Source: Rhodospirillaceae bacterium (GTDB lineage Bacteria; Pseudomonadota; Alphaproteobacteria; Rhodospirillales; Rhodospirillaceae). From it: a stretch of DNA of 64,000 bases. The stretch is from assembly GCA_029245025.1 (NCBI GenBank), contig JAQWQC010000006.1, positions 186,001 through 250,000 of the forward strand. The letters are read 5' to 3'. Of this stretch, positions 11,430 to 13,908 are shown one piece after another. The notes beneath the pieces were generated by a model. That model was not told the DNA's origin, made no database searches, and saw only the letters and a program-made list of their open reading frames with translations. A program made the position numbers and the translations under genes. Each line of letters opens with the position of its first letter. Within the stretch, counting starts at the first letter, position 1.

Positions 11430-12089
11430 TTATGAAAGGTGACGCTTGAGAAAATCCCTTGTGCGGTCATCGGCCAAGGCAGCCGACTATTCATGGAAGT
11501 AGGGACCACCGGTATTGGCGAACGCATGCCCAGCCGGATACCAGTGATTGGTATATCGATCTGCCTTCCCGGCCTTTGCCATCTCTGCTTCAAAACGATC
11601 GACCATTGCTTTGCCAAAATACTCATCTTCCGTGCCGAAATGCCCCAGCACAGACCCTTTGAGTGACGAGAGGTCATTAGCCGTTTTGTCGACATCACCG
11701 TAGTAGACGACTGTGGCCTCAATAGGCGTCGCGATTGAGGTATTTAAAGACCACGTGCCGCCAAGACACCACCCCACAGTGCCACGTTTACTGGAACAGG
11801 CAGCCTGCCCCCGCAACCAATCAGCCCAAGATACAGCGAGATCCTTGCACGCCTGCTGGTCCATGGCCGCCATAAGCTGCCCGGCGACGTCTAAATCTTC
11901 GGATGTTTTTCCACCATACAAATCGACCGCCGCCACGATATATCCCTGCTTCGCATAGGTACCAGCGAAGTCGATAAACTCTTGATTCAAAGCACGGAAG
12001 GCATGGAACAATAGCATGCCGGGAACAGGATTGTCAGCGGACGCAGTCTCCGGCATAGCGACATGCGCGTTTGCCGTTTGCCCCCTCAT
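11430..12089 (-). pseudogene. Dienelactone hydrolase family protein with in-frame TAG (11487..11489) before the last 18 conserved codons
   Basis: VGWCLGG nucleophile, HAFAN His; frame continues past the stop: GGPYFHE*SAALADDRTRDFLKRHLS*, matching the usual DLH C-terminal helix (YxEexxxLAxxRTxxFxxxHL). Confidence 0.75.
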
Positions 12090-12140
12090 GAGAGGTGATG
12101 GTGGTGAGCGGTGGTTGGGTCATCGAGCCATTCTTTCCTG

Positions 12141-12243
12141 CGCGCGCCACGCCCCAAAATCGATTTCGATTTTACTATGCGCGATTTCTTTTCCACACGC
12201 GCCACGTCCTGAAATTGCTAAAGCAATCTCACTATGCGCGTGT
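12141..12243. repeat. Two tandem two-tier hairpin repeats (offset ~55-57 bp) in the intergenic region
   Basis: Unit 1: CGCGC(12141-12145)..AAAATCGA-TT-TCGATTTT(12156-12173)..GCGCG(12179-12183). Unit 2: ACACGCGC(12195-12202)..ATTGCT-AA-AGCAAT(12214-12227)..GCGCGTGT(12236-12243). Shared CGCGCCACG...ACTATGCGCG frame. Confidence 0.8.
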
Positions 12244-13908
12244 TTATCTTACCTGCCACTCTTCCTTGAGGAGGTCTTGAGGGAACTCAGGGAACTTCGT
12301 CATCTTCTTCACACCATCGCCCTCACCGGACAACTCCAACACGCCGGGATTCATAATGCCCTTAGGATCGAGTGCCGCTTTGATGGCGACCGCTGCCGCC
12401 CGCGCCGCTGAGGACAACTGGCTGGCATAGGGGTAGGTGCGGCCCATCTGATGATGACTCGCACCAAAGGCGTCCCATAGACCAGATAGATCGCGGCGCA
12501 GCTTCATCACAACCTCTCGGGTTTCCGGATTGGCCTTTGTTTTGGCGTACGCCTTTCTTTGCTTTTCGGTAACGTGACGCATGTGGAAAGCGTGCAAGCG
12601 ATCTTTCCAATAAAACATCGGCTCAACCAAAAAGGACGTGCCCGACACAGCGGTGAGATAAGAATGAGTGATGTTGTGTTCAGTCATCAGCTCGACATGG
12701 CGGGAAAAATATTCATCGGTGATCGCGGAAACTTCGACCGCGCTCGACAAGGGAAAAATGCCGTGCACCGGCAACCAGTTTTCACCGTTAGGTCCAAGCA
12801 ACGCTTTGATTGGCCGGAAGGGCTTGGAGCGCGTCACCTTCGGTATGACGTTGGGCAGTTCCTTCAAAGCCAGTGGGATACAAATGCGGCGGACACGATC
12901 GGCTTTGGCCTGAGCCTCCTGGGCATCGACCCCCTCGACCACCACATGCAAGGCGTAGCCTGACCGATCGGCGAGGCGTTGTCCCTGAATCAACAACTTG
13001 GTGACATTGGTCACCGCACCGGCGACTTTGTCCGCCGTCGCCACCACGTCTTTGACGACACCCAAACCTTCCAAGAAAGTGAAGCCGTGTTTAGCTAGGT
13101 TCTGGTTCCCAACAGGATCAATGCCCCATTGTTCCGCCACCACGTTCTCACGCGCAAGCGCGGTGTGGGCTTCGGCGATATCCTCAATGGTGTCGAAGGC
13201 AAAAGAGAGGTGTTCTTCTGACGCTGGCATCGCAATCAACGGCATGGTGACACGCGCTTTGATTCCAAACGCGCCGCAATCACCGAGAAACAAGCCTGTG
13301 AGATCGGGACCAAAATGCCGCAGGAATGGCGTGCGGCCTTCCGCGGCAGACGACCCCGTTTCCAACAACGAGCCGTCGGCCAAAATTACATCCAGACCAA
13401 TGACGTTGTCGGCCATGGCGCCATGGGTGCCTGAACCGAAAAAAGTAGAGTTGTTGCTGGCCGCACCACCAACCGTCGATGCAATACCTGACAACGGGCC
13501 AAAGAACGGCGTGCGCAAACCGCGCTCTTTGAGCGCCTCGTACAAGGCGCCCCAGGTGCAGCCTGCTTGCACCGTCACCACCATGTCGGCTTCATTGATA
13601 TCTTCGATGGCCGTGAGACCACTCATGTCAATCATCACGGCGTTCTGACTCTCTGGGAGGTACCCTTTGGTGTAGGACATGCCTGCGCCGCGCGGCACCA
13701 GGGGCAGGCCGAGACCGCCGGCGATGGTCACCGCCTGGCACAGCTGGTCCACAGCGATAGGGCGCAGGACGCACATGGGCAGGACATCGCCTTCGCCGGA
13801 AATGTCCGTAGCGTAATACGTCAGCTCCTCTGTGTCAGCGATAACACCGTCCGGTCCGAGCAGACTTTGAAACATACCAAGCGCTTGGGCATTGTCCTGA
13901 TCAGTCAT
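12244..13908 (-). CDS. FAD-binding (FAD_binding_4/VAO-type) oxidase/dehydrogenase
   Basis: VLRPIAVDQLCQAVTIAGGLGLPLVPRGAGMSYTKGYLPES; FFGPLSGIASTVGGAASNNSTFFGSGTHGAMADNVIGLDVILADG. Confidence 0.85.
   Translation of the reverse strand: MTDQDNAQALGMFQSLLGPDGVIADTEELTYYATDISGEGDVLPMCVLRPIAVDQLCQAVTIAGGLGLPLVPRGAGMSYTKGYLPESQNAVMIDMSGLTAIEDINEADMVVTVQAGCTWGALYEALKERGLRTPFFGPLSGIASTVGGAASNNSTFFGSGTHGAMADNVIGLDVILADGSLLETGSSAAEGRTPFLRHFGPDLTGLFLGDCGAFGIKARVTMPLIAMPASEEHLSFAFDTIEDIAEAHTALARENVVAEQWGIDPVGNQNLAKHGFTFLEGLGVVKDVVATADKVAGAVTNVTKLLIQGQRLADRSGYALHVVVEGVDAQEAQAKADRVRRICIPLALKELPNVIPKVTRSKPFRPIKALLGPNGENWLPVHGIFPLSSAVEVSAITDEYFSRHVELMTEHNITHSYLTAVSGTSFLVEPMFYWKDRLHAFHMRHVTEKQRKAYAKTKANPETREVVMKLRRDLSGLWDAFGASHHQMGRTYPYASQLSSAARAAAVAIKAALDPKGIMNPGVLELSGEGDGVKKMTKFPEFPQDLLKEEWQVR

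Follow-up and report, generated by a model that had tools for sequence, protein, structure and literature searches.

In a 64,000-nt stretch of a Rhodospirillaceae genome (the window), a two-tier hairpin of about 50 nt occurs twice, head to tail, directly behind the stop codon of an FAD-binding oxidase gene. The base-paired structure of this element is conserved, as compensatory changes among its copies exceed those of both shuffled and slid controls. We infer that the element is a genus-restricted repeat of the REP/BIME kind that forms part of the mRNA as an intercistronic hairpin and influences termination or message stability, a reading that we hold with about as much confidence as doubt.

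Anatomy of the element in the window

The upstream gene encodes an FAD-binding oxidase of 554 aa (PF01565; positions 12244-13908, minus strand), whose TAA abuts the element, and the downstream gene, in the same direction, encodes a dienelactone hydrolase (PF01738; 11487-12089, minus strand). Positions 12137-12243 between them contain the two copies, w1 and w2, just where the initial annotation had placed an adjacent pair. The natural reading strand of the element is the minus strand, as for the flanking genes. Copy w2 (12192-12243) reads ACACGCGC-ATAG-TGAGATTGC-TTTA-GCAATTTCA-GGACGTG-GCGCGTGT, that is, an outer stem ACACGCGC/GCGCGTGT, an internal loop ATAG / GGACGTG, an inner stem TGAGATTGC/GCAATTTCA and a TTTA loop; its outer stem starts at 12243, the first base past the FAD-oxidase TAA. 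Copy w1 (within 12137-12187, same strand) has the order CGCGC-ATAG-TAAAATCGA-AA-TCGATTTTG-GGGCGTG-GCGCG, with an outer stem of only about five pairs, an internal loop ATAG / GGGCGTG, an inner stem TAAAATCGA/TCGATTTTG and a short loop. Both were delimited on the sequence and matched by a covariance model (CM R2; 71.2 bits for w2, 56.4 bits for w1). On the minus strand w2 folds at -24.7 kcal/mol (z -5.4), better than 200 of 200 shuffles, and the fold of w1 by itself is weaker (z -1.2).

The general build is thus a GC-rich outer clamp of 5-8 pairs, an asymmetric internal loop and an inner hairpin that stays paired although its letters change. Counting T-A and G-T pairs on the minus strand, the inner stem comprises about nine pairs. 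The enclosed length had been given as 33 nt in both copies, which holds for one of them (the lengths are 31 and 33 nt). Likewise, the inner stems had been described as completely different yet pairing: they do pair, but an A-rich foot is common to both once they are aligned. The two model matches are separated by a spacer (12188-12191, minus strand). Because the purine-rich GGAAAAGAA after w2 is similar to AGGAAAGAA after w1, element plus spacer looks like a tandemly duplicated unit. Intercistronic comparison assigns positions 12124-12136 (minus strand) to the rest of the gap, which overlaps an SD-like AGGAAAG and reaches the ATG at 12123, corresponding to the dienelactone hydrolase start in relatives.

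The pattern GCGCCACG-N(10-35)-CTATGCGC had exactly two matches in the 64 kb and none in 100 dinucleotide shuffles. The genome-wide search that the initial annotation had proposed returned the same two matches, both in the window, from the whole 3.09 Mb. Two further observations concern other parts of the window. The dienelactone hydrolase gene itself (11487-12123, minus strand) looks damaged, since a G run with one surplus G shifts the start codon used by relatives out of frame and an in-frame TAG cuts the last residues (GGPYFHE*SAALADD), which may reflect either decay or an assembly error. The segment 47558-48799 contains several stretches that recur about 937 bp apart with 76-80% identity, as expected for what would be tandem paralogous genes.

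Copies, remnants and covariation among relatives

When 73 genomes of the family were searched with the exact pattern, a single additional true copy came to light, in G070, a member of the same genus; another match, in G006, was rejected because it forms no hairpin. The G070 copy belongs to an array of four tandem copies directly 3' of a gene ending in TAG (contig C7). A covariance model built from three copies then led to a fifth G070 copy (g5, contig C11), which starts two bases past the stop codon of a DUF1838 gene, and a second model, from seven copies, to a single copy in G066 at the site orthologous to that in the window. Good copies therefore occur in two of the six other genomes of the genus (one in G066, five in G070) besides the two in the window genome, no good copy being found in the others; true copies score 45.7-71.5 bits and their number per genome ranges from 0 to 6. 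Outside the genus, no copy was found in the order (317 genomes including the genus, 310 others) or in a class sample of 385 genomes, under stricter filters, through which weak matches may be missed. G067 (contig C52) has remnants, and so has G070 behind the orthologous FAD-oxidase gene. The best reading of this distribution is that the element is probably restricted to this alphaproteobacterial genus. Because its copies are few and absent from close relatives, it can be regarded as dispensable.

Comparison of the orthologous gap between the FAD-oxidase and dienelactone hydrolase genes illustrates how the element comes and goes. The gap measures 120 nt with two copies in the window and 64 nt with one in G066; without the element it measures 17 nt in G069 and 19 nt in G067. 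Insertion of the element accounts for the gap length. G069, whose upstream protein is 95% identical, keeps only CGCGCGCAGG after the stop codon. Since CGCGCGCAGG resembles the 3' foot of w1, it is likely that the element was lost from G069 by deletion.

Evidence for the structure came from the alignment of eight copies, in which 94.1% of cells are paired under the two-helix structure and 9 of the 17 pairs show changes on both sides. The covariation score was 0.468, compared with 0.195 +/- 0.031 in shuffles (0 of 500 reached it) and at most 0.10 when the partners were slid. As the eight good copies represent three independent loci, and four of them come from one array, the double changes are not all independent. 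The inner stem is paired in 100% of cells in all eight copies despite differing letters; a comparison of the window with G066, which have the element at one and the same locus, shows as many as four inner pairs changed in both partners and none broken. The ATAG side of the internal loop is invariant (8/8), the other side is GGRCGTG in all copies except for the last base of one, and the loops can accommodate insertions longer than 20 nt. The proposal that selection acts on pairing is thus borne out by clear covariation in the relatives' copies. On the sense strand, G-U pairs outnumber A-C mismatches by 5 to 2 in our own reading of the pair table, a difference that is not significant and too small in number to prove selection at the RNA level.

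The element starts 0 nt behind the stop codon in the window, 1 nt in G066, 0 nt in G070 C7 and 2 nt in G070 C11, which represent three independent places; the junctions read TAA|ACACGCGC, TAA|CGCGCGAGC, TAG|GCACGCGC and TAA|CA|GCGCACGC, respectively. At every intact locus the element is oriented like the gene, and its ATAG side comes first. The downstream genes vary by locus: a dienelactone hydrolase in the window and G066, and at the G070 loci genes that by eye encode a TonB-receptor-like and a SUMF1-like protein. The idea of a structured operon leader was not supported, as the element is a trailer directly 3' of a stop codon, inside an operon.

Three further observations come from G070. At about 1740-1870 of L113, the four-copy array of contig C7 is directly followed by a CGTC-type REP (CGTCATGCTCGGATTTAGTCCGAGCATCC) and by another, degenerate copy (GTGCGTGCGTTATG...GACGTGGCGTACGCC), whose loop seemingly contains another palindrome. 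The orthologous gap 3' of the FAD-oxidase gene on contig C12 (L133) contains many palindromes, including a duplicated AAAGTGCGTTAGCACTAAAA together with the 3' half of the element, and the gene after the FAD-oxidase also differs. On contig C11 (L112, 1-2004), two tandem similar DUF1838-type genes precede the solitary copy g5.

Other candidate matches were rejected. The exact pattern picked out 96 stretches in 85,000 genomes, none with a comparable inner hairpin having an A-rich foot, and the 94 that were rescored reached at most 27 bits, compared with 45.7-71.5 bits for true copies; the E-values of these stretches are biased by their preselection with the pattern. With 19 fixed bases and 26 spacings, dozens of chance matches are expected, by our estimate, in 257 Gb. 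Viral matches were chance-like (the best two about 14 bits), and BLAST against phages and plasmids gave none. Weak matches in the family (G047, G060) and the genus (G069 C1, G068 C8) are without the element's letters and also chance-like, and those to half of the motif in G068, G071, G067 C66 and, twice, in G070 have no other half. No match in the window passed the gathering threshold of an Rfam family; below it, the element's best match had an E-value of 5.3.

Relation to known repeat families

REPs are generally defined as extragenic, short, palindromic sequences with a shared consensus and several copies per genome (PMC12306157). The element resembles a REP in being extragenic, about 50 nt long, hairpin-forming and endowed with a consensus; its copies, however, number only two here, five good ones in G070, one in G066 and no good one in the other genomes of the genus. 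The tandem or mosaic clustering that characterises BIMEs is also present, as two units in the window and as four, with a CGTC REP behind them, in G070. The REP/BIME-like reading of the initial annotation was supported, the element being dispersed and tandem-forming in relatives.

The element shares with the RAYT-associated GTAG REPs and BIMEs the short intergenic palindromes, the tandem or mosaic clusters, the complementary stem changes and a tetranucleotide at the foot of the inner stem. In contrast to them, it has an extra outer clamp, 0-6 copies per genome instead of a high copy number, and a foot that is ATAG in 8/8 copies, so that neither the GTAG tag nor a GYRG-type variant is found; published GTAG variants retain the first G (PMC3733652). 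Its tandem head-to-tail arrangement is rare among GTAG dimers (PMC3733652). No RAYT gene (Y1_Tnp, PF01797) was detected in the seven genomes of the genus by a search that was positive in E. coli and Caulobacter, but some species have REPs without a RAYT gene and this absence is by itself not decisive. The CGTC REPs of alphaproteobacteria come from the same class and are likewise small hairpins that carry an unpaired tag and lack a dedicated transposase; on the plus strand, 4/8 copies of the element have CGTC close to the inner stem. However, the other 4/8 copies have CGCC, the tag lies a base or two off the stem instead of at it with AT pairs first, no CCA-like tail follows, and the outer clamp and ATAG side are absent from the published CGTC description (PMC3733652). 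True CGTC-like REPs exist separately in G070, one of them about 20 nt behind the array. Within the families of the GTAG/CGTC catalogue, complementary stem changes also occur and G-T pairs were taken as a hint of RNA function (PMC3733652). Thus, the element apparently forms a small, uncatalogued REP-like family of its own, of unusual two-tier form and outside both named classes. The RIME, Bru-RS and RPE elements of alphaproteobacteria, which are also lineage-specific palindromic intergenic repeats, are set apart by a length of about 100-150 bp and probably also by sequence.

Possible roles of the element

The placement behind stop codons suggests how a transcribed hairpin might act. A ribosome on a stop codon covers roughly the next 12-15 nt. 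The terminating ribosome would therefore melt the 5' arm of the outer clamp, leaving the inner hairpin at the ribosome entry, and because that arm is covered, the clamp could form only between terminating ribosomes. When no ribosome is terminating, the whole structure would re-form and could block 3'-to-5' exonucleases. In E. coli, REPs that lie no more than 15 nt from a stop codon have been reported to lower translation and stall ribosomes (PMC12306157); they share with the element a hairpin next to the stop codon on the transcribed strand, and differ from it in sequence and in lacking the two-tier form, the effect of the element being only predicted. The likely net effect would be slower termination or ribosome recycling, with segmental stabilisation favouring the upstream message over the next gene, as described for these E. 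coli REPs (PMC12306157). In a more specialised version, which seems unlikely, the terminating ribosome would open the outer clamp but leave the fixed internal loop and variable inner hairpin in place; the clamp would thereby act as a sensor of termination, linking it to the decay of the mRNA or to next-gene translation, and copies would be placed or kept specifically at stop codons.

The main rival is a selfish, mobile DNA hairpin of MITE/REP type without host function or benefit, whose folding would matter solely to a transposase or recombinase acting on single-stranded DNA and whose pairing would be renewed by hairpin-templated copying. This is a serious possibility, although we lean against it. 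Presence and absence at one site between close relatives, tandem arrays, the scar-like CGCGCGCAGG of G069 and paired changes in the inner arms next to a spacer that remains similar from copy to copy would all be expected of it, but neither the lack of a Y1/RAYT transposase in seven genomes (with positive controls) nor the very low copy numbers nor the common orientation at all intact loci fits well. A cis-regulatory RNA, a riboswitch or leader for the downstream gene, is quite improbable: the nearly invariant asymmetric internal loop recalls such RNAs, as does the position of the element, in G066 and the window, beside an SD-like sequence of the dienelactone hydrolase gene, but the downstream genes differ between loci, no Rfam family matches and the position tracks the upstream stop codon.

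Still less probable is an intrinsic terminator or attenuator. A GC-rich hairpin right behind a stop codon has the right appearance, but there are no terminator-like sites on either strand, no U tract follows the stem, the sense-strand sequence after the element being purine-rich and not U-rich, and the next gene continues in the same direction. The partial symmetry and constant flanks had also suggested a palindrome pair serving as the operator of a DNA-binding protein, for which no positive evidence was obtained and to which we give very little credence. The inner half-sites share little past the A-rich foot and yet always pair, insertions of more than 20 nt in the loop would alter half-site spacing in duplex DNA, and both the strict pairing with changing letters and the codirectional post-stop placement speak against it. 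A coincidental local duplication without significance, to which the presence of only two copies in this genome might have pointed, deserves next to none: the initial annotation had tied this outcome to a lack of copies elsewhere and of covariation, and relatives have already refuted it with homologous, covarying copies at other loci and in other species.

In conclusion, the element represents an additional, compact family of repeats that strictly maintains its pairing as the letters change, has no RAYT gene in its genus and lies directly behind a stop codon at every intact locus. It provides a small natural experiment on how stop-adjacent hairpins arise, amplify, erode and affect operons.
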